Shown here: piece after piece, positions 15,203 through 40,100 of the stretch
Layout: each line of letters starts with the position of its first letter
Numbering within the stretch: the first letter of the stretch is position 1
Origin: Isoetes taiwanensis
Taxonomy: Eukaryota > Streptophyta > Lycopodiopsida > Isoetales > Isoetaceae
DNA: 64,000 nt
Direction: 5' to 3'
Assembly (NCBI GenBank): GCA_021234155.1
Contig: JAJEKV010000013.1
Coordinates: 4,832,028 to 4,896,027 of the forward strand
The notes under the pieces: generated by a model
What the model was told of the DNA's origin: nothing
Databases searched by the model: none
Seen by the model: the letters and a program-made list of their open reading frames with translations, nothing else
Position numbers and translations under genes: made by a program

Positions 15203-15248
15203 GCACGGGAAGAAAGACAAGCTATACCATACTTCATATTCTGCAGTC

Positions 15249-19258: not shown

Positions 19259-19652
19259 CTAGATAAATAGATGTGTGCTTGGATGGGAAATATGGAGACA
19301 TGAACATATCCATAAAACAGGAAATTGTACAGAACGTGAGGCTTTGAAATAGGGTTACGATTATCTGTGCTGCTACCGGATCAGTTGTATCATAAAATTT
19401 AGAGCTACGAAATGGGCAACAGGAGGAAGGCCACTTCCTCCTCACAAAAGATCTGAGATGATCGATGATGCCACTACTTACGGAATTAAGAGATGAAGTC
19501 TGAGAAACTCCGACTAGCGATCCAGCGATTTAAGTGCATGAGAACAAAAAACTCCACACGAGAACCTTGAATTCAAAGCCATCTTTGTCTAAACCTAACC
19601 CTTGGCGGGACTCTCACTTTGAGAAAACCATCGATGAGTACTTGAGACCAAA

Positions 19653-19910
19653 TTGGCAGACCTAGTGGCAGAAACCACTAAAGAGCAGATGATTTTGCAT
19701 CAAGATAGGATATCTGTTGAGAAAGTAGAGCAAGAAGCCAGGGCCAGAAATCTAAAAATTTCTGGCATAGAGGAGATTGAGATTGAGGATATTTCTAAGA
19801 CAATTGAGCAATTCTTGGGGATATTATGCATTTGCATGAGCCCCAATTTGTACAGGCAGCGTATAGGCAAAAGGTCCTACAAGGCCAATTCTGGTGAAAT
19901 TCAAAGATGA
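19653..19910 (+). pseudogene. LINE ORF1-like protein fragment
   Basis: The 85-residue frame has a charged helical start (VEKVEQEARARNLKISGIEE). The ARNLKISGIEE part resembles the beginning of the RRM-like domain after the coiled coil in L1-type ORF1 RNA-binding proteins (RxxNIRIxGIPE style). It continues in another frame near 19,986-20,228 (ANGIVAYTGGREGKA). The fragment sits upstream of the endonuclease, the normal ORF1 position. Confidence 0.5.
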
Positions 19911-20259
19911 AGAGGCTAGAAGCGAGTTTTACATAACCACGGACACACTAAAAGGTCACAAAATCTTTGGACCAAGATCGACAGCTTGCACAATGAGGAG
20001 ATTAGGAAGAGGGAATGGAACAAGGTAAAAGAAGCAAGAGCAAATGGAATAGTAGCATACACGGGCGGTCGCGAGGGGAAAGCCATCATAACAAAAGCGA
20101 AGAAGAGACTAGGAAAGCGGGGCCTTGAAGGTGTTAGCATGGAATATGCGTGGATTGTCAAAAAGAAAAATGGATGCATCGGGCAAGATTCAGATTTGTT
20201 ACTATTATCCGGAGACATGGGAGCGTAATCCGCCCCCTTCGAGGAACTCTGAGGGATTT

Positions 20260-20850
20260 GATTATAGGGAGTGCACGGAATGAGAAAGACCGGGGGCGGG
20301 GAAGAGGATATGGTGGTGTATCGGTCTATGCTAAATCGGATATTGCGCTCTATGTTATTTCCCCTTGAACATGCACATTTATGATCACCTGAATTGTGCG
20401 CGAGCCAACCCATTCCATCAGTTATGCAAAGATACACTCCAAAATCAGGAATTGGGAGAGGTCCTCCTTGTTGGAGACTTTAATGCAAGGATCAAAACAC
20501 CGCAAACAACCTCTTATGCAACATTAGGAGATATCCGTTTGCTTGAGGAAGAAGATCACGCCTTCAAAAGGCGGTCGGCGAGATAATGTTAGAAGCGGTA
20601 TGGGAGATCAGTTTTACGGGTTGGAAACAATCTGCCATCTCAAAATCTGAATGGCATCCACGATTTTCCCAGATTCTTGTGCGAACACTTGTTTGACCAC
20701 TTGGGATCTAATGCGGTTGATTACCTACTTGCAAGCAGTCAAAATTGGTAAGGAATTTCTATGTGGCAAATAAGATGCGAGAATCGACCATGCTCCACTA
20801 TGCTTTGAAGCTGGCGGGATTAGCATCCGCCCGAAGAAGCCAAGCTAAGT
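20260..20850 (+). pseudogene. LINE apurinic-type endonuclease remnant
   Basis: GGVSVYAKSDIALYVI (about 20,310-20,360), then EVLLVGDFNARI (about 20,459-20,495, the (V/I)GDFN motif of AP-endonuclease-like LINE domains). A DHAPLCFE-like piece near 20,785-20,810 corresponds to the SDH motif. Frames change several times between motifs. Confidence 0.7.
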
Positions 20851-21299
20851 TTACTCAAAGCTAAAGTTGAATTACGGAGGGTAGCCGATTATCGCGAGCA
20901 TCTAGAAGACAAGCTAGCATGCTACATGGGCCGGGGAGGTAGGAAAAGATGCCGCTTTGAGTTCTCAAACATGTTACATCGGCTGACTAGAAAAGTTTTG
21001 GATGCACAAAACAAAGGAAGCGGGGAGCAATGGCTGGTGGGATCGGAATGCGGTGCGGCAAAGGCGGCATTACCCTCTGGATGCCCTACGCATAAACCAA
21101 AATGGTATAAGGCACTAATTGAGGAAAGAAAGAAGATACTTTCGGACACGGCAAGAGTCCCTTGAGAAATGGTTACGTGAGCACCCAAAAACCTTTTGGA
21201 AGCTTGGCTATCAACTAAAACACCCCAAAGCGGATCTAGATCCCACAGGCGCTACGCATGATTCGAGAAATATATTCTCACAATCTTTGAAACCATGAA

Positions 21300-22472
21300 A
21301 TCGAGGAGGTTGTAGATTCGGATATGTTCACAACATGGGATGTGATGAGGCACTTAAAGACATGCCAAATGGGAAGGCGGCTGATTTACAAGGTCTAAGC
21401 ATTGAGCTATTGAAATGGAGTGGAGATAAATCCATAGAGATTGTAACAAAGTTGATGAACCAAGCTGTTATACAAGGTGCGCCACAAAGCTGGAAGGAAA
21501 AGCGAGAGTTTTTCAATCCACAAAATAGGGGATAAAAACAATGTGTGCAATTCTGGGGATGATTTTAATCGGCGGTATGTTCTCTAAGGCTGCTAGGAAG
21601 TTTATTAGCAAGAAAACTTCGGTTTATGGGCTGATGCAAATGAGAAAAGAGCCCATTTGCCGGGCGGTTTTAGAAAACAACCTTGCACTCTTGATCACGC
21701 GCTTAGCTGCGAAAGTGTTGATCGAAAAAGGCAAAACAACCCGGGCAGGCGTTGTATCGGCCTTCATTGACCCTTAAAAGCATTTGTCTGATTCCTCGAA
21801 AGGACTTGGGGATCTGAATGGAACACCTTGGAGTACCAAAGGAAATTAGAGGAGCTATCTCCAACTATACTCAAGTGATAGCCAAGTTATCGTGGAATTT
21901 GATGGAGAAATTTGAAGCACTATAGGTGTTTCGGGGTGTCCGTTGTCCCCCTGACCGGTCTATACATAGACGAGCTTGAAGAATGGTTAAGAACAAGAGG
22001 TTTAGCAGGTTCTCAGTTGGGTTAGTTCCTGGTCCAACTTCTATTGTATGTTGATGACGTAGTACTGGTGGCAAACAAACCTGAAGGTTTACAATCCCAT
22101 CTTGACGATCTGGCAACGTTTTGTGAGGTAAGACACATGAAAGTCAATTTGGCCAAATCGAAAGTGATGGTGTTTAGACTTACATTCACATTTAAGGGTG
22201 AGACACTAGAAATTGTAGATAGCTACAAATATCTGGGACTAGAATTTTCGGCAAAATATAGTTGGAAAGAGTGCATCAGGAAACGGATAGAGGGCAGCAA
22301 GAAAGCTTTATATGGTATGCTAATAAAATGTTATAAGGCATCTCTCACAGACTGGGGACTCAGAAAAATCCTATTCAAAACCTTAGTCGGGACAGTAGTC
22401 TTATATGGCTCACCTATAAAGGGGGCCTTGCATCTCAACTCATCAATGGACCTGAGGTTGAATCGGTGTTGA
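21300..22472 (+). pseudogene. LINE reverse transcriptase remnant
   Basis: Motifs in order: ALKDMPNGKAADLQGLSIELLKW at about 21,352-21,420 shows the PNGKAxGxDGxxxExLK start. GCPLSPTLTGLYIDELEEWL is at about 21,936-21,995. YVDDVVLVANKPEGLQSHLD is at 22,047 onward (the catalytic YVDD box). KSKVMVF and a YLGLEF block lie near 22,155-22,245. At least five frameshifts or stops separate them. Confidence 0.9.
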
Positions 22473-22851
22473 AGATATTTCTCCGGAGAATTAGGAATTA
22501 AACAACGATTCCATATGCAATACTATTGGCGGTGGCATGCTCCCTTTGGAGGCGAAGCTTTATATCGGACATTGAACTTTGTTACAAGGATTATAGCAAG
22601 CGGCCGGATGGCGTTTACCTAAGTTGGCACTATCCCAATCCTCATCCACGGGATGGTGCCCGTGATGTGTTGTATGGGCTGAGAAATGGGGATATCCATG
22701 GATGGGTTACCGGAACCACGAATATTGGTGCCGAGATTTGAATCTGAACCACGAGTTATAGAAGCTTTGGGCACACAAGGGTTCCGCATGGTTATATATA
22801 CATCAGAAGTGAATCCCTTATTGATATCATTAGGGCGGATTTGGGGGTCTG

Positions 22852-23440
22852 AAAATGGCCTCTATCGGCCATTCCCGTCATATTTCGCTCCCTTTTTCCC
22901 ATGCCACCTAGGATACCAAACTCTCATAATTCTGATTTGCTTGGAATATTCTTAGGAATAAGGGGATTGCATATTCATGGGCCATATGTATTTAATTACA
23001 TTTGGTTGTCGGGCGGGTTGATGCAACACGTGGCGCTTCTAAAATGCCACTTGCATTATAGCATACCAGGCAACTCATGGCGGTGTGTCTCTTGGTAAGC
23101 GTCGCGGCGTCACCGCCTTCTACATTTCAAAAGTTGAATGTGTAGGTTGAAGCTTTGTATCGGTCGGACTTTCATTTGAATTTGACTGCGCCTTATAACG
23201 ATCTTCACTTCATCCTAATACGGGCTTCCGCCCCTACAATTCAAATTTGAATTTGCTTAATGTATAAAAGCATGGATTGTAGGAGAATGGACTTTTCGAT
23301 TTCCATATGCGCGTTGCAAATTTCAAAAGCGAAGTTAATGCGGACGTTCGGCTCACCACGAAGCGAATTGTGTTGGGGCATAAAAATACCACACCTTGAT
23401 TTGGCGCCGATGCGATCTACGATATGGAAGTTGCTTGTTG
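22852..23440. repeat. Subterminal direct repeat, copy 1
   Basis: Matches 24816-25440 in order: AAATGGCCTCTATCGGCCAT, TTGCTTGGAATATTC, CCACTTGCATTATAGCATAC, ACATTTCAAAAGTTGAATGT, GGGGCATAAAAATAC. Differences are mostly small indels. Copy 1 begins inside the terminal inverted repeat. Confidence 0.85.
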
Positions 23441-23624
23441 TCAAATTAAACTTAAACACAAGTGAGGTCGGCACTTACGTGGTTTTCTCGAGGAGGGTTT
23501 GGAGTGTTTTTTTTAAATCCCAATTATCGACATAGTGTGGCGTAGCATCTTGGTATTAAATAGTATGTTAAATTCGAATTATATATCGGTGTTCATTTTC
23601 TGGTTAAACTCAAATCATATAGGT

Positions 23625-23732
23625 TTAGGAATAAGGTTAAAAAAGGAAGATATTGGCTATTTAGGAATAAGGTTAAAAAAGGAAGATATTGGATATTTAG
23701 GTATAAGGTTAAAAAGGAAGATATTAGATATG
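23625..23732. repeat. Minisatellite, 36-bp unit, three copies
   Basis: The unit TTAGGAATAAGGTTAAAAAA followed by GGAAGATATTGGATAT starts at 23625, 23661 and 23697. The copies are almost identical, so the expansion is recent. Confidence 0.9.
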
Positions 23733-24636
23733 GCTCAAATTTGAGATATGCACATAATGGCATGTAATGATGGTTGATAGGACTGGAATCTGAATCATTC
23801 CTACGATTTTCACGTCTAATCCAGCCTATATCTATTCCGGCCCTAGATTGGCCCATTCTCCCCAATCTCGCCCAATCTTTGCTAGATCCTCGCCCAATTT
23901 CTCTAGTCCATCGCCATGAAGAGATCAGCTACGGAAGAAGCTGGGAGGTGTCCTCAAGAAGCGCCTATTGCGGCTGGAAGAGGTGTTCCCTCATGATTCC
24001 CTCCGCTGCCCACGGTTCTTGCTCTGAATGCCTCTCGATTCCTCGATTCCCTCGATTCCTTTGGCGAGGAATCGGAGAATGAGAAATCGAGAGGAAATTT
24101 CGAGCGAGGAGTTCATCACAGGTGTTCTTGAAGGCTGGATAGGAGATTCTTGAAAATGAGTGGTCTAAAGCGGAGAAAGCCGAAGATGATGAAGAAGATG
24201 AAGAAGTTGAAAGCGAATCTGGCGACTTGAGGAGCTCATGGCGTTAGTTCATGGTACATGCATGTTTTCTTTCTTTTCTTAAGCATTCAACTAACGGTTA
24301 TTTCTTATTTTTTTTTGCGGATGATGAAGCGGATGAATGAAATTTGTTAGGGCGAGAGCACCTCTTATTTTTTTTTCCTTGTTCTTAGTCGAGCTTGCCT
24401 CCGACTTCTTACCATATATTTGCAAGCCTCAGGGCTTTTTGTTGTGAATAGTTGAAGCCTCAGGGCATTTAAATTTACAAAATGATGTAAAGCCATCTGA
24501 CCATAAAAATTTTGAATGTAAAAGTTTTTGCTTCTAATTCCATTTGAATACCTAACTTTTTTTTTCTTGTACATGTGTTACCACTCTTAAGTACATAAGT
24601 CATCATCCCTTTTCAAAGAGCATATTATTTTTTCAA

Positions 24637-24705
24637 GGATCACACCAGCCCGAATAGTACATATGCAACAAAAATGGAACACACTAAATTAGCATCGTGT
24701 GATCC
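24637..24705. repeat. ~70-bp palindromic mini-element (member 1)
   Basis: Begins GGATCACACCAGCC and ends GCATCGTGTGATCC: 9-bp perfect inverted ends (GGATCACAC/GTGTGATCC) over 69 bp. It is the clearest member of the family found between the genes of this transposon. Confidence 0.75.
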
Positions 24706-24815
24706 ACTTTCTTATTTGTTGTCAAATTAAAACTAAACACAAGTCCCTCGTCAATAGTCTCCCATTTGCATATAAAATATCTATCATTCCAAGTTATATT
24801 ATGTTTTATGAACTA

Positions 24816-25440
24816 AAATGGCCTCCTATCGACCATTCCGTCATATTTCCGCCCCTTTTTTCCGTCGGATTTGCTTGAAATATTCTCCGGAATAAGGGAA
24901 TCGCATATCTATGGCGCCATATGTATTTAATTCTCTTGTTGTCCAGGACAGTTGGCCTTAACACGTGGCTTCTAAAAAGCCACTTGCATTATAGCATACC
25001 GGCAACTCATGGCGGTGTCTCTTGGTTTGTCGGATACCAATCATGCGCATCACTTAGATTCTTGTCTTGCCCTATTTTCATTTAGAGTCCATTCCGCCTT
25101 CTACATTTCAAAATTTGAATGTGTAGGTTGAAGCTTTGTATTAGACTTTCGTTTAGAGCTGCGATTGCGCCTTAAAAGTTAAATCTTAGGGATCTTTACT
25201 TCATCCCAATCAGGGGCTTCCGCCCCCTACAATTCAATTTTGAATTTGCTTTAATATAAAAGCATGGATTATAGGAGAATGGACTTTTCCATGCTCTGCG
25301 TTGCAAATTTCAAAAGCGAGGTTAGTGCGGATTTGAGCCTCAAGCGAAGCGGGAATTGTCTTTGGGGCATACAAATTGTACACATTCATTTGGCGTCGAT
25401 GCGATCCCGCAGCGGTATGGAAGCTCAAATGATGTGTGGA
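24816..25440. repeat. Subterminal direct repeat, copy 2
   Basis: Second copy of 22852-23440, 1.96 kb downstream in the same orientation. It lacks the outermost terminal bases (TCATTAGGGCGG...), so it is not a second transposon end. Landmarks include CCACTTGCATTATAGCATAC and GTGTAGGTTGAAGCTTTGTA. Confidence 0.85.
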
Positions 25441-27960
25441 TAAGGATCAAGCCCGACTTCGGGGAATATGCTCCGGTCTTCAATGCAAAAAAAGAGGTCT
25501 AAAAATAAGAACTTAGACCTCGACATGTTGCGCCTTGCGAGGCTCAAAAAGTATCGACATCAGGCGGATGGCGGTTTATATCCATTGGATCCGTTGAGTG
25601 GCGGGGAAACCGTCATTTCGGGGCGTTTCAAGTTTAGTCCGATTTTGTGGTGGCGGTAACTCGGCCTCTTGGGATATTGTGAGAGATTGAGAGAGGATGA
25701 AGGCGACCGAATCGAATCTGAGTTCCTTGAGATGGCTGCTTCCGATTGTCACAAGAGAATTATAACTTAAACCAGCAGCTCTTTTTCTCTCGCTTCATTA
25801 CTCCTTTGTGATGAAGGAAAGGAATAATGACTTGGGGAGGAAACTTCTTTGAGATCTGAAGTGGAGAAGTCAAATTGGTGATAGGGCAGGCTGCTGGAAA
25901 AGATCAAGAGCTCGAAAAGAGCAAACTTTGGGCTTCAATGTAGGTTAAAAATTTGAAGAAAAGCGGGGATCAAGTTAAAGTTCCGTGGCGAAGACCGGGA
26001 CTTCGGCCCCAAAGCGTAAACCCCTTGGCTGCGAGAAAGGAAGAAGCATTATCGACCAGATAGAGGCTGAAGTTTGGATCAGGTGCATTGGGCGAAGTCC
26101 GCGGCTACAAGGTCCGTTTACAACACTAGCAAAGGCCGGTTAAGATGCGGGGAAACTAGAAGCAATCTTGGTTCGTAGTGAAGAACCTAGCGACGAAACG
26201 GGGAGATAGTGGACATGATTTGTCGACCCTACAACTCTCCTCTCAAGAAGATGGTATTGGAAATGGTACTAGGGGAGATCTACAAGAAGTTAGAAGCGGC
26301 GGATGTACATTTGTTTGTGATGATGTAGGCATCGGTGAGGCTTGGTTACCGTTCTCTATTCAAGCCATTCCACGAAGCGTTGAAAAGAATGGGCACAAAA
26401 AGTATTAGGCTCCCGTCCACAAATTGTCGAGAATACAAGGGTTACTAGGACAAAGATGGTGTATGCCATATTAGGAGAGATGCACCACGTTGAATGTCTT
26501 TGGTCTGCCATAGCCATAAAAGATAAGAATGGCAAGGATTGTTGTGATATAGTTGGAATGAATGAGCGCCTTAATAATCTTTGGGTTGACACTGGTTACT
26601 CTCTTACAATTCCTTGTCAAATATTATGACTTGATTTCGAGAAACTAATGGTGAGATTGAAGTTTGCATAAAATTGGATGAAATGGGGCCGACCAAGTTT
26701 GAGAAGTATGAGAGGGTATCCGTTGTCATCATGAATAGAGCAATTGAGAATGCAATTGCACATGCTAAATCAAAAGAGCAACAAGAATAACAAAAAGATG
26801 TAGAGGTGACGGACGAGGAGAAGAAAGCGTCTTGCGGAAAAATGGTTCTCATGTCAATCGAAGATGACACACGGTGGTTAGGTCTCTTTTAAAGTGAGAG
26901 AAAAGAAACCCACGAGGTTTTGAAATGGGTGTTCAATCAAGCGACATCCGAGTCTAATATCTAGATTGAGGGAGGGAAAAATTGCAAGTAGATCACTATG
27001 GATCTTACAAAGTAATTTTTCACTTGGCGTCTGATTTAAAAGCGAGAAAGCAATGTACAACATAAGTGGAGGAGGACAAGGAACATGCAAAAAGTTATGC
27101 ATCTTTTGCAATCATGCAAAGGAAGTCAAATCTTGGGGGAGGCTGTTTCAACCTTGTCCCTTAACCAAGCAAATGCTCCTAATAGAGGAGAAGAAGATCC
27201 CAAGTTCCATGGCATTTTCCCCATTCCATTAGAGAGGGTTCATATCGCACTTTGCGGCTTTGTGAGAATCATCGACAAGATGATATTTTTTTGAGCTGCT
27301 GATTCGTGTGGAACATTTCGGACAAGAAGAAGAGAGGAAGGAATTCGTAGAGTTGAACATGTTCTATCGAAGCTGAGGTTTGCATGGTGGCAATGTAAGA
27401 TTAGAGCTCGATGAAAGCAGGCGGGGAAGAACAAGTGTGCCTCGTAAAGGTGTCAATTGGAGGGATGGCTTCGGCGCTTCATAAAAAAAGAATCATAGAG
27501 AGGCTACGAGCGGAAACCGGATGGGAGAAAAAGGTCTATGAATTTGGAAAATTCTTTGGTTGATGCGGGCAGGACCCGCCTGAGATGGCGTTCGTTCGGC
27601 ATTGAGGAAAAAAAAAGCATGGGATGCATTATGCGAATTGTTCCCATACATTGAGGAGAATGGACCTCCACAAGAAGAAGATGAGAAATGTTAGGTGCAA
27701 GCGAATAACAAATTTATTAAAGCTTTCATAGGCGCATGGGGGAGAGTGAAGTCACGCACTACTTGCACATCTTTTGGGCTCATGCACCTTGGTTTTTAGG
27801 AAGTATGGAAGCCTAGCGATTGTGGAGTGCACAAGGCATGGAGAAAGTCGCATAAACAAGCTAAAATAGCCTTTCATCGTAACACTCAAAGGGGTGGAAA
27901 TGTGGGAACCAACCCTCTAAGGCGGATATGAGAGTGGTTTTATAGAAAGGCGATGGCTAA
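25441..27960 (+). pseudogene. Transposase-like gene, frameshifted
   Basis: A long stretch with + strand coding character broken by many shifts. Recognisable parts are near the end (27,710-27,930): FIKAFIGAWG, then in a second frame EVTHYLHIFWAHAPWFL and WSAQGMEK, then in the first frame KSHKQAKIAFHRNTQRGGN. A HxLxAHxPxFLxxYGSL...QGxEksH block is the C-terminal part of the RNase-H-like core in several DDE/D transposase groups (compare the ExNES region of RAG1/Transib), with the Glu as probable third acidic residue. Earlier parts include SIAIKDKNGKDCC-like and FVELNMFYRS pieces that I cannot assign. The superfamily is undecided. As the only transposase-like gene inside the inverted repeats, it is the best candidate for the element's own enzyme. 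Confidence 0.5.
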
Positions 27961-28130
27961 ATCGACAAGAAGGTCGCTTTAAGGAAGCAACCCGAAGTCG
28001 TAAACACCATTGGCATAATCTTTGAAGAAAGCGGAAAGTTGCTTGGCAAAATTCTAGGGCCCCACTAGCATCATAGCGGTGGAGATCTAAGAGACAAAGA
28101 ATCGGTAAAATATACTTGTAATGTGTAGCA

Positions 28131-28274: not shown

Positions 28275-28359
28275 AGCTTTACAAGATAATAATAAAAAGG
28301 GTTACTTTTGATTAAAGTTGTGAAAGATGTTACATTGAAAAACAAAATACAGCGACTCA

Positions 28360-28795: not shown

Positions 28796-29056
28796 TATCG
28801 GCGGTTGAGGATGTGGAGGCCATAGATGACAAATGGGAGGGGCGTTAAGATTATAGAAGTGAGGAGCAAAGACTCTAACGGCGGAAGGAGCACATGCAAG
28901 GACCTCAATTTATACATATTGGCGCTTGAACATATTAAACACACTTTCATTTAGCATGCATGCATGCGTGTCGGGGATTAAATGGGTTGTCGCTAGAACA
29001 CATTAATGGTGCTTGTCATTTGGAACACATTAATAACTATTCTAACTAGCTTTGTA

Positions 29057-29121
29057 TATCACACCATGCGAAATCGCACCACGAGCTTTAAAACCCTATG
29101 AAGGGTTTAAGCCGTGTGATA
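29057..29121. repeat. Palindromic mini-element (member 4)
   Basis: Starts TATCACACCATGCG and ends GCCGTGTGATA, giving 8-bp perfect inverted ends over 65 bp, with an inner AAACCCT/AGGGTTT hairpin. It lies between two minus-strand genes. Confidence 0.7.
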
Positions 29122-29157
29122 CATCTTAATCATTCTCTCTACCACGGATATTGAAAA

Positions 29158-29688
29158 TTAAAAATAGGAAGCGTAATATTCGGTACATTTGTCAAAAACT
29201 TTTCCCATTGAAAAATAAAACCAATTACAAACATTAAAAAAAAAGCGGGCCCCTCTAGGAGGGGCCCGATGCCTATGATCGCCGGGCAAGCTCTTCGGAG
29301 GCGGTGATAATTTTTTGCTCCTCCAACATGATTGCACTGCCCGCAACCACGTTCTCATATTCGCAACCTTATCTTCCCGCTCATCGAGTTGGGCTCGGGC
29401 AGCCCTCTCAGCCGATTGCGGCCCTAAGCCTCTCTTGGAGGTTATATCTCGTGGTGGCGCAATTCGCGGTCTAAAGGCAACCAGTGATTGTCGGCGCACT
29501 AAAATCACCTCCACAGTAGAAGGCGGCCTTTTCCTCTGCCTTAACCCGGCTTGGCGGCGTCTTCATCATTCTTTTTTCTTTTAGAAGGCGGATCCGTTCC
29601 TAAAAAGCCCGTAGCGAATGTTCTGAATTTCCTTGACCAAAACTTGAGACAAGATCTCGGCGGGGATGGGCTGGAGGCTGGAGGCCAT
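29158..29688 (-). pseudogene. MASS-type small protein gene (paralogue 1)
   Basis: A TATA-like sequence TATATAAAA (minus strand, about 29794-29786) lies about 100 bp before MASSLQPIPAEILSQVLVKE (start 29688). This promoter-to-start spacing and MASS start are shared with the genes at 30,671 and 31,600. The second half continues in another frame (RAARAQLDEREDKVANMRTW near 29390-29340), which looks helical. Function unknown. Frameshifts separate the halves. Confidence 0.45.
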
Positions 29689-30151
29689 TGAAAGTGATGG
29701 GAGAAGCGGGGGTGATGGCTGAGAGGCGGATGTGGTAGAAACGAGAAGATGGCGGATAGGAGAAGACAAAGGCCTCGGCGTTTTATATAGAAACTAGAAT
29801 ACGTTGGAATCTACGGTTGCGATTCTGGATAAAGTTGTGTAATAATCCTGGCGAAATTATAGCATGCAATTAGGCAGCGGTAGCCTATGTTAGCATCATG
29901 GGATCCGTCATATCCCTAGCCGTCTTGTATGCGGGGCGTACAAAACGATGTTATTGTGGCGGCGCATGCATGCGTCCTTGGCATGGCGTTGTCATCCACA
30001 AGCCCGCGTATGTGAATAGGCGTTGTCATCCACATGCAAATTAGCATTTACACGCAAGTTATATCACATAATCTAGCTAGATATTTGTGTTACATACACT
30101 TTTCCATTAATAAATTATGAATTTATACATACAGCGAGGTATGCGTTGTGG
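29689..30151. other. Promoter-side spacer of the MASS-type gene
   Basis: Contains the TATA-like box at about 29,786-29,794, TGGCGTTGTCATCCACA-type direct repeats near 29,982 and 30,020, and CATGCATGCG words. No gene is recognised. Confidence 0.45.
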
Positions 30152-30221
30152 AGATCATCTGACTGGCGAAATCCATTGATTGCTACCTAATTGCAAGAAT
30201 GGCATTTGGCGTCGTGTAATC
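30152..30221. repeat. Palindromic mini-element (member 5)
   Basis: GAGATCATCTGACTGGCG at the left and GGCGTCGTGTAATC at the right. The centre (ATCCATTGATTGCTACCTAA) is identical to that of member 7 at 31,033, because both lie in a larger direct duplication. Confidence 0.6.
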
Positions 30222-30329
30222 TTTAATAAAACAAAACAAAGAAACGGATAGAAGCAAGAAATAGAGCAAATTTTTCTTTGAAACAAAAAATATATATACA
30301 ATGGCTACGGATCTTCATGATCCGTAGGT

Positions 30330-30671
30330 GAAAGCATCAAAAAGCTGCGTTCTCATCCTCGCTGACTCGAAGCTTCTTCTCCATATCTTCTAGCGCTGCG
30401 AAATATTGTGTCGCGATTTAAAAGCGCCTCGACCCCTCGACTATTGGCCTCTCGGTACTGGTTAATGTTCTTTGCGAGCTCAAGGTCACCGCTCATGCGG
30501 CTGACCCCTAGTAATTCTAACTTTGTCCACCGCCTCCATCTTTCGGCGGCCAGGAGGCGGCTTTTTTTCGTCGTGAACCTCCTTGAATCTCTTCATCACC
30601 ACGGCCAAGGGTGATGTCCGTGAAGCGATTAAAGGTAGCGGTCGCTTCTTGGAGGAGGATGAAGATGCCAT
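30330..30671 (-). pseudogene. MASS-type small coiled-coil protein gene (paralogue 2)
   Basis: TATAAATAG on the minus strand (about 30783-30775) lies ~105 bp upstream of MASSSSSKKRPLPL (start 30671). VMKRFKEVHDEKK follows near 30,600, a short amphipathic helix shared with paralogue 3 (MKRFKEIHDENNRLAAEN). The last part, read in other frames, contains LELAKNINQYREANS near 30,490-30,440. No match to a known domain. Confidence 0.5.
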
Positions 30672-30802
30672 CGGCGGAAGCCCGGAAGGCGGAAAGGCGG
30701 AAAGGGGAAGATGAAGCGAGAAAAAAGGCGGGAAGCGGAAGAGGATCGGAGGTCGAAGGCAAGATAGAAAGTCTTCTATTTATAACGGGGATTTCGTAGT
30801 AG

Positions 30803-30878
30803 CGAGTCACCGCGGCCTTGAAGGATCTTGAGTGGGTCGGGGAAAATCGGCCAGTTACTTCTCGGCGTCGTGTGAGGA
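30803..30878. repeat. Palindromic mini-element (member 6)
   Basis: Left end GAGTCACCGCGGCC, right end GGCGTCGTGTGAGG. It sits just upstream of the TATA box of the gene at 30,671. Ends are imperfect. Confidence 0.5.
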
Positions 30879-31032
30879 AAAAGGACCGTTACTTCTTCTA
30901 GCGTCTTTTCTTCGAAAGCTTCGTGTGATAATTTTTATTGATAATTTCGGTGATACAATCTATACATAAGTAATTTTCTTGATACATAACTAAAGATAGA
31001 ACTTCTCATTGAAGCAAAATAGAGCGGCATGG

Positions 31033-31105
31033 AGATCACCGCGGCCAGCGAAATCCATTGATTGCTACCTAATTGCAAGCAAGGCATTTTCGGCGTCGTG
31101 TGATA
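31033..31105. repeat. Palindromic mini-element (member 7)
   Basis: Left end GATCACCGCGGCCAGCG, right end CGGCGTCGTGTGATAT, 73 bp. The centre matches member 5. Confidence 0.65.
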
Positions 31106-31199
31106 TTTTAATAAAAGCGAGAACATACATTGGAACAACGGGATAGATAGAAGCAAAAAATAGAAAACTTTTCTTTGAAGCAAAAATAGATAGATACAG

Positions 31200-31600
31200 C
31201 GGCTAGGGATCTTCATGATCCTCTAGCTGATTTTCATGTCTGCATTTGAAGCCGTAAAGGCAGCGTTCTCATCCTCGGCTTTCGGAGCTTCTTCTCCATA
31301 TCTTCTAAGGCTGCGAAATCATGTGGCGGTTTCAAGCTGCCTCGGCCCTGCGGCAAATTCGCCTCTTGGTACATGGCGAATGTTTCCCGCGAGCTCAGCG
31401 TCTCGCTTCGTCGGCGGCGGCTCCCTCGTGAAGGCTAATCGTCGACCGCCTCATTGTTCTCGGCGGCGAGGCGGTTGTTTTCATCATGGATCTCCTTGAA
31501 TCTCTTCATCACCCTTTGCAAGGGTGATGTCCGCGAAGCGACTCGGGGCTGGGGAGTGCTATCTTGGCGTGGTGGCTTGCTGGGAAGATGATGATGCCAT
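31200..31600 (-). pseudogene. MASS-type small coiled-coil protein gene (paralogue 3)
   Basis: Start MASSSSQQATTPR at 31600, with TATAAATAG on the minus strand at about 31695-31687, ~90 bp upstream. Then VMKRFKEIHDENNRLAAEN near 31,510-31,455, a leucine-zipper-like helix, and ALEDMEKKLRKPRMRT near 31,310-31,260. It is the best-preserved of the three paralogues. No DNA-binding basic region or other known domain was seen. Confidence 0.5.
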
Positions 31601-31784
31601 CCGGGGCGAGGAAGGTGGAAGCGGAAGCCAGGAAGTAGAAAGATGGCGAAGGCGGAAGGCGTCGGAGGTCGGCGTGGACATCGGTCTTCTATTTATAACA
31701 TGAGTCTACGAGTTGCTTCTCGCATCGTGTGAGGAATAAATAAATTAATTGTCTTTTTCAATAATATTTCATTTCTTGAGATAG

Positions 31785-31849
31785 ATATCACTGCGGCGAA
31801 AACCTAGATATAATGAGAAAATCGGTGATGTATTTGGCGTGATGTGAAT
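31785..31849. repeat. Palindromic mini-element (member 8)
   Basis: Left end ATATCACTGCGGCG, right end TTGGCGTGATGTGAAT, about 65 bp. It lies between the promoter of the gene at 31,600 and the 3' end of the unknown gene above it. Confidence 0.5.
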
Positions 31850-31869
31850 AAATACAAATAAAATAATTT

Positions 31870-33356
31870 TTATTAGGAATTCGGAAGGACAATCGTACAT
31901 AAATAATTTTACCGATACAAGTTGGAAAACATATAACTTCCAATTTCTCAAGCCGTCGTCAATTTCATGCTCTTTCAATCCCTGCCATGCCTTGATCCAA
32001 CAAGGCAATGACTTCCATGTTATCGACCCGACTTCCAACCTTGGGTGAGTCAAGCCCGGTGACTAAAAATTTAACATATTGCTTTCGCTGCATGAGGACC
32101 GGCAGTGCGTCAAAATATTGTAACACAACATCGTAGAATTGCTATCACCCTTTCGGTGTTTGATGCCAATTGGGAATGGTTCCCGAACATGCATAATGCG
32201 GAGGTAATAGACAAACTCTGCACCCTTTGGACTGAAAGTTCTGCTGAAGGCGATTATCTCCCCATTAGCGAATCTTGAGATATATCTTAACAATGTAGAG
32301 TCCTTCAATCTTTCTGTCCCCAGCGTGCATGTCGGCAAGAAAAATCATCTACTTCCCACAAATAAGAACCCTCAAGATTATCTTCTTCACATTTATCCTC
32401 ATCTACCGGGCTTATCTTTTAGCGATTGGTGAAGGGCACTGCCAAACACTGTAGATCTGTTGGCGACTTTGCGGCATTTGGAATTCTTCTTTAGTTGGTA
32501 GATTAAGCCTCATCTTGAGCAAATCGAGACTCCAGCCTCTCATATGCTTCTTTAAGCTTTATAGCATTTGCGGTATAATTAGATACTTCAAACATCTCTT
32601 TGTCCAAATCCTCTTCAAAATCTAGGCCTAAGTTTACCCATTTAGGCCAAAGATCTTGATAAGCTTCGTCTTCCCTAGCACACATTAAGTAACATAGGCG
32701 GGTTCCTCGGTATATCACTTAGCAATAAGTATTCTTTGCCTTCCACTAAAATTGGCGTTATGTCGGAGGACAACTTCTTTTCATCCTCATCCCCATCCTC
32801 ATCACCTTGAGAATCATCTCCCTCCTACGGTTCACCCAAGGCGGTCGTCGAAGCTAAAACTCCTACATTCTTGCTCTTCTTCTTGTAGATCTATCTCCAT
32901 TTCTCGTCATAGTCGGCATCATCACACATAGCTGACCCCCCTTGGCTTAAAGATTTCATTGTTTCCGGTGTATCTTCGGTTTGGCGGCGAGAATGCAATA
33001 ACTAGCAAATGCAAGCGGCAAAGAAATAAGATACCTTCTTAAGCACAAGGGGCAGCGGCCGAGGAGGAGCCCGTTGCGGCATTCTTGAAAAACATCTTCC
33101 CTGTTTGCAAATGGGAAGCCGCCTCCTCTAGAGCTGGTTTTGGAATCCACGAGCGGGGACATCACTGCAAAGGGCGTCTTTGAGACCAAGCGGTGCGGGT
33201 GAAAGCTAAAGCAACCTGGCGATAGCATCAAGCTTCGCTCTTGTTTGCCATGATGTCCAACTCCTTGCAATAGAGCGGATAAATCGCGGTCGGCGCAACT
33301 TCCTCGTTGTCATGAGGCGGATGCATACCATTCGGGAACTTCACATAACAATCCAT
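31870..33356 (-). pseudogene. Unknown protein gene(s) of the inner transposon
   Basis: Minus-strand coding pieces in several frames: MDCYVKFPNGMHPPHDNEEV at 33356-33297, an acidic stretch GDDSQGDEDGDEDEKK near 32,815-32,770, and FEEDLDKEMFEVSNYTANAI near 32,620-32,560. KLKEAYERLESRFAQDEA (32,555-32,503) and RLEVGSITWKSLPCWIKAWQ (32,041-31,982) follow. They could be one protein of ~490 residues or two genes (a start MKSLSQGGSAMCDD lies near 32,957). I do not recognise any domain. Many frameshifts. Confidence 0.4.
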
Positions 33357-33485
33357 GGCGAAGCAAGCAGCGAAAACAAGAAGATGTTTAGGGCGGTAAA
33401 AGTATTTGTCACTTTTGAACTCAAGTAGCGTTGTCGATTATGAAAGGGGACCACGGCCGTTGTGGGGAGATTTGTCAGGTACATT

Positions 33486-33509
33486 TTAGGGTTAGGGTTA
33501 GGGTTAGGG
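33486..33509 (+). repeat. Interstitial telomere-like repeat (TTAGGG)4
   Basis: Four perfect TTAGGG units. Most land plants use TTTAGGG, so the six-base form is notable. It immediately precedes palindromic mini-element 9 and lies upstream of the unknown gene starting at 33,356. Too short to be a telomere. Confidence 0.9.
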
Positions 33510-33511
33510 TT

Positions 33512-33580
33512 GGATCACCACGGCGAAGACTACTATGTGCAACAAAAAGCACAATGCTTCTTTGCGGCGTCGTGTGATCC
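33512..33580. repeat. Palindromic mini-element (member 9)
   Basis: Left end GGATCACCACGGCG, right end GCGGCGTCGTGTGATCC, 69 bp. It separates the H3-like gene (3' side) from the promoter side of the gene at 33,356. Confidence 0.75.
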
Positions 33581-33753
33581 CCGCATTATAACATTAAAAA
33601 AAAAAAAAAAATACAAAGTCTTGAAGCTAGGCTTCTAAGAAAGAAATGGACTAAGAGATTAAGCTTATAAAGCCATTGCATTAAGAAATATTATACATAT
33701 GAAAAAACACAAAGGCACTTCGGCCTTTTTAGGGGTCTTTCTTCTTGTTGTAT

Positions 33754-34584
33754 TCACCATAAAATTTTGACCATAGTACTTTCGGGATCCCTTATCGTAA
33801 GGCGAGCATGTCCTTGGGCATAATGATCCCCGCTTGGCATGTATTCTTTGCAAGGCTGCGAGTCCTCGAACAGACCAGACACCAAGCGCTTCCGAAGCCA
33901 TTTTGAAGAGCATTTAAAGGCGGTTGCTTGAATTACATGCTGGTATGATGTATCGCACCACACTCTTGCGAGAATCTCTCTCACGAGCACGGCAAATGGG
34001 AGCGGAATGACCATCTCGGTGCTCTTACGATACTTCTTAATCTCATGGCCTCTTTAATACCGAGGCCGTCTTCGCTTAGGCCTCTACCCTCACCCACCCC
34101 AGCATTTGGAGCCTGTTGCTCGGCCGACTCTTCCGGCCGCCTCCTCACCCCAGCATCTGCAGGCTGTTCCTCGGCCGACTCTTCCGGCCGTCTCCTCACA
34201 TTCCTGGTCGCCTTCCCCTTTCTGGCGTTGGGCCTCCTCCTTTGATTTGAAGGTCCTGGCACCTCCACAGGAGGAACAGGAGGAAGCGAGGAAAAGAGCA
34301 AGAAGGCGGCTGCCCAATAATTAATCCGGCATCATATTACGCTTTCGCCCGGTCTCTCACATTTCATCCTCGTCTCTCGAGCAGGAGTGCACCTCCCTAC
34401 TTACTCGGGCTGCTTCTCCGCTTGATGTCTGTCATGCGGATTTCTTTTTCGGGTCTTACGTTAGGCATGGTGGGAGGAGGAGAATCTCTATCGAGACTTG
34501 AGTCGGATGAAGAAGGCGGACTAATGTAATCACACGGCCTTACACCACTGGATGGATCCTTGCGGTTTGCTTAGTTCTTGCCAT
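33754..34584 (-). CDS. Histone H3-like protein encoded by the inner transposon
   Basis: Histone H3 pairs with H4 in the nucleosome core. The start (34584) reads MARTKQTAR, identical to the first eight residues of mature H3. After a one-base shift comes a Ser/Pro/Asp-rich linker (PPSSSDSSLDRDSPPP) and then a 17-residue repeat RRPEESAEEQPADAGV. The C-terminal ~90 codons (34060-33770) give a full H3 fold in pieces. These are an IKEAMR...RSI helix, then IPLPFAVLVREI (H3 LPFxRLVREI), then KMASEAL. LVSGLFEDS (H3 LVGLFED), IHAKRG and IIMPKDMLAL (H3 IHAKRVTIMPKDIQLA) follow. At ~275 residues it is twice the normal 136. Position 9 is not lysine as read, and loop 1 looks about four residues longer than in canonical H3. 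About five frameshifts are needed, so it is decayed or poorly sequenced. The fold identity is clear; whether it acts as H3 is inference. Confidence 0.85.
34113..34215 (-). repeat. 51-bp tandem repeat in the linker of the H3-like gene
   Basis: The unit CTGTTGCTCGGCCGACTCTT occurs at 34113 and again (CTGTTCCTCGG...) at 34164. The period is a multiple of three, so the repeat encodes a 17-residue unit (RRPEESAE...), likely disordered and charged. Confidence 0.85.
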
Positions 34585-34611
34585 GGCTTCTCGGCGGATG
34601 GCGCTTTATAC

Positions 34612-35100
34612 TACGAACAACGACAAAATAGACAAGCTGGCGGGGGAGATAAATAGTAAAAAGCGAAGTTAAAGTAAAATATGATGGTAGCGTTTTTAAA
34701 TAATTATGCGGAACCCTAAAAAATATCGGACAAAATCACGGAACCCTAAAAAACATCAGACAAAAACACAAATAAAAACCGAGATTCAAAGCTAGCCGAT
34801 AGACAATTTCTTGTTGATCGCGAACTCACTAAACTTTACATTTCCCTCTTGCACGTAACCAACCCTAATGCCATCAATAAAATAATGGAAGTCGTCGGAC
34901 AATTTCCTCTGTCTCCATTAGCACTCTTAGCTCGATAATGGCCATTAAACTTTCCATGGTGGCCGTATAAATGACTTCCTCCCCTCTCCATACTTTCGAA
35001 TATCCACGCGCATCGGAGTGTCTATTATGGTCCTCAAGCGGCTCCCAAAAAGTTGTGCGACCTCTCTTTTTACTGTTTCCTTCGTTCTAGTTGACAATTA
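34612..35100. other. Spacer upstream of the H3-like gene
   Basis: GGAACCCTAAAAAA with ATCGGACAAAA is repeated with a ~33-bp period near 34,711-34,770. A minus-strand coding piece LMAIIELRVLMETEEI lies near 34,970-34,905 but matches no family. No palindromic mini-element separates the H3-like gene from the gene above it. Confidence 0.4.
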
Positions 35101-35700
35101 GCATTATAAATATTGTTTTGGAAGAAAGTATCGAACTTAAAGGAGGACTTAACTTACAGCGGACCTCTGTTAGTTGACCCGGATGATTCGTGGAATCGAA
35201 CATCAGTCGGAACCAAAAATAAGCCATCCACAAAATCGGCGGGGGAGAAAGCATTATATGTCTTGGGACTTTTGAACTTCTGCGCCATCACGGAATATGT
35301 TAGCAAATACCTCAAGCGGTGTGAAGATTTTTGAAACTCATCCCTCCGCCTCCGTTTTTCGGACATTCCGCTTGCACCTCGTCAGCCATGCATTTCTTCA
35401 TTGCAATTACATTGTTCTCATTGTGCGTGGCTTACAAAGTTCACTTAAAGGGGGCAATTCAACCGGCCTCAAGCTCGGTTTCGACCTTTACGTTATAATC
35501 ATGTCGAAGTAAAACCGGATGCCTATACCCGCAAGGTCCACGGCATCCATACCTTGAAAAGGACAATTCCGATGTCTATGTGATACGACAAGTACACTAC
35601 TAATACTTTCGGTAGGAATGACATCCACGGCGTCGATAAACATAAACACGCACAATAAATTTGTTTGTAAACGCGTGTCAGCGAAAAGAAATGAAAAGAT
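35100..35700 (-). pseudogene. Unknown protein gene of the inner transposon
   Basis: Minus-strand frame piece VFMFIDAVDVIPTESISSVL (about 35655-35596), then HRNCPFQGMDAVDLAGIGIR, and later in another frame MAQKFKSPKTYNAFSPADFV (about 35,290-35,230). The composition looks like real protein. No known domain was recognised. Interrupted by frameshifts. Confidence 0.4.
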
Positions 35701-35705
35701 AAAGA

Positions 35706-35775
35706 AGATCACCGCGGCCGAAACTATCTCTCTGCTTGATTAAGTAGCTGACAGCTAGCCGGCGTCGTGTGATCC
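35706..35775. repeat. Palindromic mini-element (member 10)
   Basis: Left end GATCACCGCGGCCG, right end CCGGCGTCGTGTGATCC, 70 bp, at the upstream end of the gene below it. Confidence 0.7.
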
Positions 35776-36002
35776 GTTTAAGGTGGTTACCATTTGCGGG
35801 CAATTTTGGGAAAATTTGTTTTTGGTGGAGATTAGCTCTTTGGCCATATCGGAAGGGGTATATGCATGTCGTATTGTTATACTTTCCACTTTCCGGCGCT
35901 AGAATTCAACTTGAACTCTTTTATCCTACCTATCAATGTGTCGCCGCGTCTGATCGCCTTTGTAAAGCAACTCTATGCTGCCCCTCGTTGATGGCGGCAT
36001 AC

Positions 36003-36282
36003 TCACCACGAACCTATTGAGACAAAACCTCCCACTTCTTGACCTTGGGAGTTACGTAAATGGGGCAAGAACACGAAATTACGGGGAGACATGGATTGCG
36101 GATGAGGAGTGAAGGCGGAGAGGATGCGCGTAGAGCCGGGTGGCGATCTGAAGTTTGGCGCCAAAATTTGACAAAGGGAGTTGGTGGCGGTGGCGGTGGC
36201 GGTCAAAGTCACCATTATTTTTGGTGGCGACTCCCGAAAAATACGGGCCATTAAAATGGTTTGCAATAAAAGCGCGAGGCAT
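36003..36282 (-). CDS. Possible first exon near the right end of the inner transposon
   Basis: A minus-strand open frame of about 85 codons includes SPRNFVFLPHLRNSQGQEVG. It is followed by a donor-like GTGAGTATG near 36,006. A GGTGGC run at 36,181-36,204 encodes an alternating Thr-Ala stretch. It might be the 5' exon of a gene continuing towards 35.8 kb. Unrecognised. Confidence 0.3.
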
Positions 36283-36448
36283 CCCCTATGAAAATCGCCA
36301 TGTGGATGCCAAGTAAGCTGCTCATCCTTCTACACCCAAGTATCTCGACTTTTCGTAAAAGCGCCAAACCTGATTGGTCTGGCGAATCGGCGTGGAAATC
36401 TTTAGCCCAAGATAAGGGCCATTTCAGACCCCAAATCCGCCCTAATGA

Positions 36449-36837
36449 CTCGAACAAAATTACGAAAGCCCGAATCCGAGCTCTTTAAAGAAATACATAT
36501 ACGATGCGAGAACCGGTTCTCATAGGCTGCGCGTGTGGAAGCAGGGTAGATGGTCGAAAACTCCAAGAGAAGAGAGGCTTTGTGAAGTATGCAATATGAA
36601 TATGGTTGAAGATGAGGTTCATGTGTTCTTCACGATTGTCCAACATATGAGGATATTGAACTAAATTTGATATCTGAGACTCTTGATTTTCATCCTTATT
36701 AGATGATAATCCTATGGTGCTTGGTCTCTATTTAATTTGTAGAAGCACATCGTTCACTAGTATTGGCTGTGAACAATCTTGTATGTCTGTTCGCTCCATG
36801 GCCTTCAAGGTCCAACGTGGGCGTGATTAATTAATTA

Positions 36838-36868
<31 letters not shown>

Positions 36869-37040
36869 CTTGATCTGGACCGTACATAGCAATCCTCGTT
36901 TGTGGGGTATAGCTATACAAGTTTTTGTATACTGTATAGTGAGGTTTGCAAAAGACTATAAGGTTTGAGGGAATGTAGTTAATGGTGTTAATTTTGTACA
37001 TGTATTGTAAGTTTTTGGGGCTCTATTTGCCCCCTCGTAA
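36449..37040 (+). mobile_element. LINE, 3' part (continuation after the inserted transposon)
   Basis: 36,521-36,660 encodes RLRVWKQGRWSKTPREERLC, then EVCNMNMVEDEVHVFF. This is the C-terminal RLR...GRW...R.C..C....DExH signature, a zinc-knuckle-like block at the end of many LINE proteins. An (ATT)n run follows at about 36,824-36,867, then a 3' UTR with GGGGCTCTATTTGCCCCCTC. It is in the same orientation as the 5' part and starts exactly at the right inverted repeat of the inner transposon. Confidence 0.8.
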
Positions 37041-37109
37041 CCCCGTGTGAATATGCACCCAAACCAAAGGGGGTTTCAGGGGGATTTTAATTTAAATGCG
37101 TTAGATGCA
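37041..37109 (-). repeat. Right copy of outer ~68-bp inverted repeat
   Basis: Reverse complement of 18912-18980 with about two mismatches (core TGCACCCAAACCAAAGGGGG). It directly abuts the LINE 3' end. With its partner it spans 18.2 kb. Confidence 0.75.
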
Positions 37110-40100
37110 GTGGTTTGTGTTAATAACGTTAATGTTAGTTATATGTTGGTTGTTATATTAACACTAGAGTGGTCAGGTGATGGACCAAAAATGGTCCATT
37201 TGAAGTGTTCACTTTAAAATTCATATAAAATCAATGATACAAAATCTATTTGAACCCTTCGTAGGAGTTCATATATGGCAGTCATGGTCCACTAGAAAAA
37301 TACCTAAAAATATATATACCTCCATTCTTGTAAGTTATGCTCTAGCAAACTCAAGGGGGTCAAGTACAAAAAGATTCATGTTTACACAAAGTCAAACTGT
37401 CTCGACAAAACGATTTTTTCAAATTTTTTAATTACCATGATATTTTTCTACACGAGATAGGAAAAACAAAACAAAAAATCACATGTCAATCTGAAGTCTG
37501 TGAAGAAAGATAGGGCCATGCAAACATGACAGGGTCAAAACCGCTTTCTGCCTCCTCAGAACCAATTATGGTTCCCAGAAAGCAGTTGTAGTTTAAATAC
37601 AACAACTTTCACAGGGAAATGCATTTTGAGCTAATATTTGATATATAAGCAATTGATAAGTTCCTCCATCCCATAAAAATGTTGGTTGGCCTTGGATTTG
37701 ATGTTTGGACTTTCACTTTTGATCTCAATTTTAGGTAACTTGTAATAATGATTAATATCTATATCTATATCTATATATAATAATAAAGCCATTTTAGGAT
37801 AGTTTGTGCGCGATCTTGTCCTTTCATTTGTTTTGTTTCACAACTTTCATTCTGGGCCATTTAATAGTTAGTTATTATTTTCCCGAAAAAGACAGTGAAC
37901 AATTTTACCTAAAACTAAAAAAATCATGAGCTATTATTGCGGAGTGCTGTCGGGACTCTTTTCTGCAAGAGGGCTCCATGGATTTAGGATATTCTATCTT
38001 ACTCTGTACTGCCGGGCATTCGGTGTCTACGAACAACAGATAAATTCTTCTGGGTTGACAGCATTCATGCATGCCTCCTTCTTTTTCTTAGGACGAAAAG
38101 CGGGGATTGAAGTTTCTACGGTTGGATTTGGACCCCCAAAAGTCGGTTCTTTTGATTTCTTCTCTTAGGGAGTTCTTGTTTGATCGAGGATCATGTCTAA
38201 TACAAGTAGAACATGAGGTGATAAAGGCGATCGCTTTCTTGGGTTGGATCCTTTGATGCTTCGATTTCTTTGGTGGGTTTCTTTTTCTTTTTGCTGATCG
38301 TTTTCTTATGAATCTAAATTGTGCCCCTTTTCTTGTCTGCGGTCGAGCGTGTTTTAATGGCGAGAAAACAACATGGTTTACGTGTTATCGGACTTGGGTT
38401 TCTCACGTATGCAGGTTCCTGTCCCTCCGATGTATCGCCTCCTCGGTTCCTTATGGATTAAAAGCGGACCCCGATGAAAGTTCTTCTCCGGTTGATCGGG
38501 ATGAAGTAAATGGCGGTATGTCCTTTCCATTGTTATCTTTAGACCCTCCTTTGCCACCTAACCATGCGAGAACATCGGAAGTCGATTGATTGCAATATGT
38601 AAATGGCGGTGATGCTACATACCACGCGTTTCGATTTGCATTTTTCTCTTGCGGCCCGGTGGCGAATCGGCTTCAAGATGACATCATCGTTCTAGGATGT
38701 TTAGCGATGAATCTCTTCTTTGCAAGTATTGGCTTTGTCAAGATGAGACCATCACATTTTACATATGCCATGTCTTTGATTGCCAATACTCTCCCTTAAA
38801 GAAAAGCATACGAGAAGAACGATTTTAGCTAATCATATCCTTCTCTTTCTTAAGCTTGGAAAGCATGCCAATCACAAGGTGAAGCTCTTTGGCACCGATC
38901 TTTGCGGTCGGTTGTACTTGCGCTAATGTTTGATTGAACTCTTATTAGACATGTAGCACATTTTTCTTTTCTGGACCTCGCTTTAAATCTATAGGATTGT
39001 CAAAATGTGTGATAAGGTATTGCAGAAACCATGGCCAATTGTCAGTCATATTCTCATAAAAGTAAATTGTGTTTTCTCCATCCCCATTGCTATTTATGTT
39101 GACAAGGAGAGGTGGGCCAATCGATTTTAGTAATGGGTGACTAAGGTCTATAGCGAGAGGGCATCTCGAGAATACTCACGACATGCTTACATCTATCACA
39201 CCTTTCAATAGCCATAGGCAATCGGCACGAGCATCATTTCCGAGGGATGTTGCTGGAATAAAAGTTTAATTTGTTGCTCGTAATAGGGAATGACAGGTAG
39301 ACATAATGATGATAAATGTAATTTCTTGAAGATGCCAATGACAAGTGAATATGCATCTGCATCTGTCACGGGTAAGCATGTTTATGGAATGTTTGGGTTT
39401 TTATAGTAAGCTACACTTTACATATTAATGCATAAATTTTTCTATCCATATTACACATTGTTAGATGAATATTATCTTCACTCTTTATGAGCCAGTTGAA
39501 TGCCATAGCCAATGATGTTGACAGAACATGACAGCATTCCAGGTCTGTATAATGGGTTCAGAGTCTATTCATTGTGAAGAAAAGATGTTTTGTCATGTTA
39601 ATCTGCAATCAGACCCATCTTGACATTGTATCACTGTCAAATGATTTCAAGTCACTCAGGAGCAAGATCTGAGGGTATGAATTCGATTTCAAATTTTTTT
39701 TTTTTAGTTGTAAAATGAAATGAGTGTATGTTGTTATTCACAGGATTTCACGAAGTTCTTGAAATGGCGGTATAGCGAAGAACATTACTGCGAGAGCAGT
39801 TTTTTGCAGCGATAGATTTGTATTAAGAAGCGAGAACATGATGGATTTGGTAATGAAATATATAAGGTTTTTAAATGATGTTGGTTTAGCGGTTATCTTG
39901 AATCGATCATTGATAATAGGAGAGCAAAGGTACTTCTTGTTCATTTCAATGACTTTTATCTCTTACCGAGGGCAAGTAGAATTTTTGCAGCTCTACAAAC
40001 CATTTTGTAGTGTGCAAAAGGATTCAATCAAAGCGGAAGAGAAAGAGTGCCCTCGATCGCCAAGTTTTCTTGCGAGGTATTATTGGGGGCATTGATCGGC

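Follow-up and report, generated by a model that had tools for sequence, protein, structure and literature searches.

Organisation of the locus

The window analysed here, a stretch of 64,000 nucleotides from Isoetes taiwanensis (contig JAJEKV010000013.1, positions 4,832,028 to 4,896,027), contains a 13.6-kb element (22828-36447) that has inverted ends of about 33 bp, lies within a LINE and carries a diverged histone H3 gene on its minus strand. Gene X (X1) is located downstream of the H3 gene on the same strand, and beyond X1 follow four genes for coiled-coil-like proteins and a gene on the plus strand. The features, with L numbers for loci fetched from the genome, are:

19600..22827, plus strand: left half of the host LINE (RVT_1, 37.8 bits); LINE copies without the element exist
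22828..22860, plus strand: left terminal inverted repeat, CATTAGGGCGGATTTGGGG..., with the same letters in five left ends at other loci with differing flanks
22852..25430, plus strand: subterminal repeat pair (22852-23463 and 24815-25430), from self-comparison
25334..27758, plus strand: coding region, with frames of 204 and 264 aa in L033
28360..28844, minus strand: coiled-coil-like protein 1 (by eye), 163 aa in L024, no convincing Pfam match
29161..29793, minus strand: coiled-coil-like protein 2 (by eye)
30308..30775, minus strand: coiled-coil-like protein 3 (by eye), encoded in a region that repeats the protein 4 region at 74% DNA identity
31322..31757, minus strand: coiled-coil-like protein 4 (by eye)
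31968..33580, minus strand: gene X (X1), an acidic protein with a 499-aa open frame in L038, homologous to X2 of the second family
33754..34584, minus strand: H3-like gene, with a MARTKQTAR-[I/T]HPGGV tail, a linker of about 150 aa, an H3 fold and a short C-terminal extension (exact stop uncertain)
34795..35575, minus strand: gene for a 260-aa protein, open in L021, on the other side of the H3 gene
36415..36447, minus strand: right terminal inverted repeat, seen in 16 of 20 fetched copies
36448..37113, plus strand: right part of the host LINE; the joined flanks align over the junction in other LINE copies

Comparison of the window with itself pairs 22827-22866 with 36448-36411 at 90%. The plus-strand region is the only sizeable candidate on that strand on the left side and possibly encodes a transposase; it has no convincing Pfam match, and its 264-aa frame has no match in the PDB. 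The gene for the 260-aa protein has no family match and the right part of the LINE no Pfam match, while PDB searches with the frames of the neighbouring genes returned nothing, or E 0.39 and worse.

The spacer that separates the H3 gene from gene X includes four TTAGGG telomere-type repeats (33480-33515), and a telomere-type repeat also occurs within the frame of copy L009 (LTLTLTLTL). A word near GGCGTCGTGTGATC recurs beside the element genes (28195, 28262, 30192, 31090, 33560 and 35765, by eye) and may be a promoter or terminator motif that they have in common. Elsewhere the window contains a perfect inverted repeat of 233 nt whose arms lie 508 nt apart (6664-7637), a 216-aa open frame (8829-9476) that we take to resemble a plant HAD-type phosphatase/TH2 protein, a 289-aa open frame (15093-15959) presumably akin to GH25 lysozymes, and two sets of direct repeats with spacings of 3.6 and 4.6 kb (48482-54750), one part of which resembles the upstream region of L034.

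A histone H3 variant without K9

The first-pass annotation of this stretch, made from the letters alone, had proposed a gene that starts with the ARTKQTAR of H3 and ends in a complete though frameshifted H3 fold, and we find both. An ATG at 34584 (minus strand) begins M-ARTKQTAR; by itself this tail is marginal in the window sequence (48 against a shuffle maximum of 47), and it is read in frame in the better copies L016 (171 aa) and L038 (133 aa) as M-ARTKQTAR-IHPGGVRPGDYISPP... The fold spans approximately 34053-33782 on the minus strand, with frameshifts within it. A frameshift-aware alignment gave a score of 144 against residues 44-136 of plant H3.1, far above 1000 dinucleotide shuffles (mean 30.7, maximum 53), those of the 422 window tiles that lie clear of this place (at most 41) and the opposite strand of the same place (49). 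Not limited to the fold, the alignment to plant H3.1 scores 162, with 64/122 identities and 8 frameshifts, and a single window frame retrieves H3 chains from the PDB at E 1e-4. Because of the frame breaks, the Pfam Histone score of the window alone (16-18 bits) stays under the cut-off of 26.4. The 247-aa frame of copy L027, which comprises linker and fold, passes that cut-off at 65.0 bits (E 1e-17), and the product thus belongs to the Histone H3 superfamily.

Of the 21 rows aligned, one for the window and 20 for copies, 19 contain the tail. R2, K4, Q5, T6 and R8 are kept, whereas K9, S10, T11 and K14 are replaced: position 9, read by eye along the alignment, is Ile in 15 of the 19 tails, Thr in 3, broken in 1 and Lys in none, with Ile likewise in L038, and position 14 is Val. 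A long linker stands where the rest of the H3 tail would be. Within the fold, alpha-2/alpha-3 and the IHAKRV..MPKDM end are retained, and loop 1 is four residues longer than that of H3, the alteration lying around K79.

With its K9 and K14 replaced and its fold only 61-66% identical to plant H3.1 (three copies), the product is not a canonical H3. It shares with plant CENH3 an H3 fold, a longer loop 1 and a long variable N-terminus, but its sequence is nearer to H3, since all 21 folds score higher with H3.1 than with the Arabidopsis and rice CENH3 folds, and its identity to CENH3 is 45-54%; on these scores it is probably no CENH3. The host's own H3 is represented by 15 copies that are 96-98% identical to plant H3.1, and the fold is accordingly no recent copy of this ordinary H3, a concern raised in the first-pass annotation. 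A processed pseudogene of host H3 is rejected on the same difference in identity and on the fixed place of the gene in the element, and the minus-strand stretch read downstream of the gene shows no poly-A run.

Copies, ends and insertion

In the genome searched (1,658,258,908 bases, 1110 contigs), the 99-aa H3 frame of the window has at least 150 matches (the best 150 of 1500 candidates), each of at least 48 bits; about six of them are, by our reading, an additional frame of a copy already counted. In their main pieces, the twenty stretches that were fetched through their H3 match the element at 83-93%. Sixteen of these show the right end, identical in its last base in all except L013, five loci show the left end (four of the five left stretches fetched, and L014), and the flanks are unrelated. 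The element ends read CATTAGGG...CCCTAATG, the BLAST start of two left ends having been shifted by 2-4 bases to the common CATTAGGG.

Since copies fetched by H3 provide a biased test, the ends were then searched without it. Among the best 40 of 1063 candidates for the right end alone, 37 match up to the final base and 3 stop one base short of it, and at least 32 of the 40 (the window counted) have H3 at the expected distance and on the expected strand, among the matches listed. In three of the remaining eight (C1054, C1074 and C1028), gene X was identified by eye at the corresponding position. The H3 gene is therefore cargo of a mobile element, as had been proposed from the window. Further copies, which the first-pass annotation had suggested searching for, are numerous, but the intact fold frames that it hoped for did not appear, all 21 folds read being broken.

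That the element sits within a LINE, with inverted repeats at its ends, is borne out by LINE copies in which the site is empty. The joined flanks of the window have 38 genome matches, 31 of which span the junction and two of which are the window's own halves; in the four LINE copies fetched, the junction is exact (TTATTGATAT directly followed by ACTCCGAAC), with nothing lost or duplicated. No target-site duplication was found in any of the five insertions with both ends read, nor at the empty site. One of the five end pairs has 2 bp (AG) in common next to the ends and no more, and the longest shared flank words do not exceed the longest in mismatched pairs.

The term DNA transposon, used in the first-pass annotation, is thus apt for the inverted ends, which cut-and-paste TIR transposons share, but not for target-site duplication or a recognised transposase. 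The six frames of the element contain only Histone and a weak PBP1_TM match (13.7 bits, of no bearing), and frames from the copies give Histone and otherwise weak matches under the cut-off. Pfam found no transposase domain in the six element frames and eight copy frames, with hAT absent from both sets, no DDE match, the plus-strand gene included, and no Rep/helicase (the Helitron protein) in the six frames; because the frames are broken, the absence of these domains is weak evidence. Helitrons begin with TC and end in CTRR (TC...CTRR), which the ends of the element, CATTAGGG...CCCTAATG, do not fit, duplication-free insertion being common to both. Its exact, duplication-free insertion does not fit the cut-and-paste superfamilies as generally described. 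What we describe is a 13.6-kb multi-gene family with inverted ends and duplication-free insertion that encodes an H3 variant as a standing gene, followed by X.

A second family with H3 and X

A search with canonical H3 revealed, among the best 150 of 9022 candidates (15 host copies included), at least 135 further folds at 71-86%, of which 129 are stop-free in the matched part and many lie in frames of 400-567 aa. This second family was read at three loci. At L034 (1908-4902), the H3 fold (Histone 140.8 bits) forms a fusion with a part of about 300 aa for which Pfam gives no match, and X2 follows this fusion. X2 alone is found at no fewer than 150 genome places (the best 150 of 4114 candidates), and at 46 places or more, picked by eye among the matches listed, it lies 149-228 nt after a second-family H3 on the same strand; these places give the spacing of the pair and are no estimate of how often it is kept. 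X1 has 161 genome matches, many with open frames of 300-500 aa. The 499-aa frame of X1 aligns colinearly with X2 at 40 bits (E 1e-7, 51/240 identity), against a maximum of 22.7 in 60 shuffles, and only with this frame is the relationship clear, shorter frames giving E 5e-4 and an hhalign probability of 16. Judged by this alignment, X1 and X2 are homologous. The histone is therefore not restricted to one element kind, given that the second family has a related pair of H3 and X.

Compared between the two families, the H3 folds show 56-59% identity, below that of either to H3.1, so that the histones may have been separately acquired or have diverged early. In the one copy looked at, GTGGTATCAGAGCC, which we take to be a plant LTR-type tRNA primer-binding site motif, is located upstream of the first gene (L034:1322), and the second family is on this ground probably an LTR element; no direct LTR pair was found within the 12 kb read around L034. 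A third H3-like fold (LEIRHFQRSYGLLIPRAAFARLAREVLQEFDKSKR...) lies beside an element copy at L031:603-1070 (minus strand), with stops upstream, and the flank that contains it has no DNA match in other loci of the first family or in L034-L036. The contig of one second-family copy also holds a 679-aa open frame with a YIDD reverse-transcriptase-like stretch (L037:3964-6000, minus strand), presumably Penelope-like.

Frame breaks in the H3 gene

The fold contains 6 frame breaks in the window and 2-9 in the 20 other copies read. According to its report, the I. taiwanensis assembly (1658.30 Mb, 204 scaffolds and 909 contigs) was built from ONT reads (flow cell 9.4.1) and polished with racon and pilon (PMC8566536). 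CAG+CTG amounts to 11.3 per kb in the element, 24.0 in the left flank and 13.8 in 37200-64000, the corresponding values for CCG+CGG being 25.6, 9.2 and 11.7. Between two internal repeat pairs, CAG/CTG is kept in 2/26 cases and AGC/GCT in 36/77; of the repeat pairs outside the element, one is low (4/12 and 16/33, respectively) and two further ones keep more CAG/CTG (8/14 and 10/14). Among 32 trinucleotide classes compared over 19 aligned rows, CAG/CTG shows the lowest conservation (0.35, followed by ACG/CGT at 0.41); CTG and CCG alternate in the tail, where CCAGG is also garbled. Frame breaks are fewer in copies that are richer in CAG/CTG, a modest correlation (Spearman -0.57, p 0.02, with 16 of the 20 copies), and CAG/CTG density does not correlate significantly with the H3 score (0.34, p 0.20). 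The LINE flanks of the window show comparable small losses against four other copies. At the three loci read, the second family contains CAG+CTG at 30 per kb, and its frames are open.

The frameshifts named in the first-pass annotation are thus present in the sequence, but many of them look like ONT base-calling errors of the assembly at CHG-methylated cytosines (CAG/CTG), and gene calls in CAG/CTG-depleted elements of this assembly may be unreliable. The same signature suggests that the copies were CHG-methylated in the sequenced tissue, and hence silenced despite their H3. The H3 frames, broken in every fold read, may also have truly decayed. Codon differences among copies (65 silent and 93 replacing, or 31 and 77 without CG, CAG and CTG codons) lend no support to purifying selection, with errors blurring the counts.

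Relation to known mobile and viral histones

The first-pass annotation knew of no established transposon family that encodes H3, which was mistaken, since fungal hAT elements do so (PMC3538342, PMC6710886). Manning et al. 2013 (PMC3538342) describe, in Pyrenophora tritici-repentis, a hAT element of about 5.6 kb with an H3L gene, of which the reference genome has 26. Like ours, it has inverted ends and a diverged H3-like gene with tail insertions that is neither H3 nor CenH3; unlike ours, it is fungal and much shorter and has a hAT transposase, whereas the Isoetes element is 13.6 kb long, has other neighbouring genes, lacks a target-site duplication and yielded no hAT domain. In Pseudocercospora fijiensis, a hAT element with histone H3 reaches hundreds of copies, as set out by Dhillon et al. 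2019 (PMC6710886), so that there too H3 has been amplified by a transposon. Those elements, however, have an 8-bp target-site duplication and a hAT domain, and their copies are RIP-inactivated and 90% truncated, whereas in Isoetes a single tail alteration is common to the copies, and the pair of H3 and X recurs. The fungal genes were described as gene capture. No 8-bp duplication occurs in any of the five end pairs or at the empty site, and in this respect the Isoetes element does not fit the fungal hAT-H3L group.

Single histones are also encoded by viruses, namely a bracovirus H4 with an extended tail and a xenomavirus H3 (review PMC9145170). These resemble the Isoetes variant as parasite-coded histones that likely enter host nucleosomes, and differ in being single genes of viruses rather than part of a chromosomal mobile element of a plant. 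Among the literature matches listed for transposon-encoded, Isoetes and lycophyte histones we saw no plant case, which does not show absence from print. The case described here is an unclassified lycophyte element without target-site duplication, with a standing H3 gene that lacks K9.

A possible role in evading silencing

In angiosperms, H3K9 methylation recruits CHG methylation (the H3K9me2-CHG loop), and the K9 lost from the variant is the very lysine by which hosts silence transposons. We tentatively propose, with a probability of roughly 0.4, that the H3 variant and X as its own chaperone would provide the element with nucleosomes immune to H3K9 methylation and so keep it expressible. The variant would pair with host H4, its alpha-2/alpha-3 and IHAKRV..MPKDM end being kept, and X, which resembles a histone chaperone in acidity alone, may escort it. 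Given a tail without K9, variant nucleosomes on element DNA could not receive H3K9 methylation, and silencing would not be maintained on them; the H3K9me2-CHG loop would be broken and the element left expressible, while K4 on the tail would still be readable or markable. The tail-replaced H3 fusion of the second family, together with X, may achieve the same effect by another route. The recurrence of H3 and X in separate elements argues for use over accident.

Other readings have to be weighed against this proposal. The broken state of all 21 folds and the excess of replacing over silent differences would suit a transduplicated passenger, in which a host H3, captured in the distant past, was multiplied along with the element and is decaying without function; Pseudocercospora offers a precedent, with 784 copies RIP-inactivated save the original (PMC6710886). 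Yet the readable copies have the same tail and the same loss of K9, H3 and X are paired in two element families, the frames of the second family are mostly open and the breaks cluster at CAG/CTG, and we consider this explanation only somewhat less likely than our proposal. The high copy number, together with a loop 1 altered around K79, might instead indicate a competitor that sequesters host H4 or the chaperones of H3, or that has a poisoning effect on nucleosomes in general, and thereby loosens the silencing of all elements instead of marking its own copies, but the linked gene X suggests directed handling, which makes such a general effect distinctly unlikely.

A longer loop 1, by four residues, and a long N-terminal part are CENH3-like features, and a selfish centromere-type H3 could target elements to centromere-like chromatin or seed it; with 21 of 21 folds favouring H3.1 over Arabidopsis and rice CENH3, and identities of 61-66% against 45-54%, we give this little credence. 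Less credible still is that the element is a virus relative whose histone serves to package its DNA, as happens in DNA viruses that encode histones. Several genes without known relatives and the precise, duplication-free insertion are in keeping with such a relationship, but no capsid, polymerase or packaging domain was found in the six frames (weak evidence, the frames being broken), and IMG/VR contained no match to the frame-broken 99-aa query, which finds close relatives only.

Returning to the proposal of K9-less nucleosomes, the element allows a direct test of silencing evasion by a self-supplied nucleosome subunit. A wider and rather doubtful extension is that at least two kinds of Isoetes element share a portable module, a K9-less H3 with a dedicated chaperone X, for silencing-proof nucleosomes on their own DNA, and that the module, given its many copies, may have reshaped the chromatin of the host.
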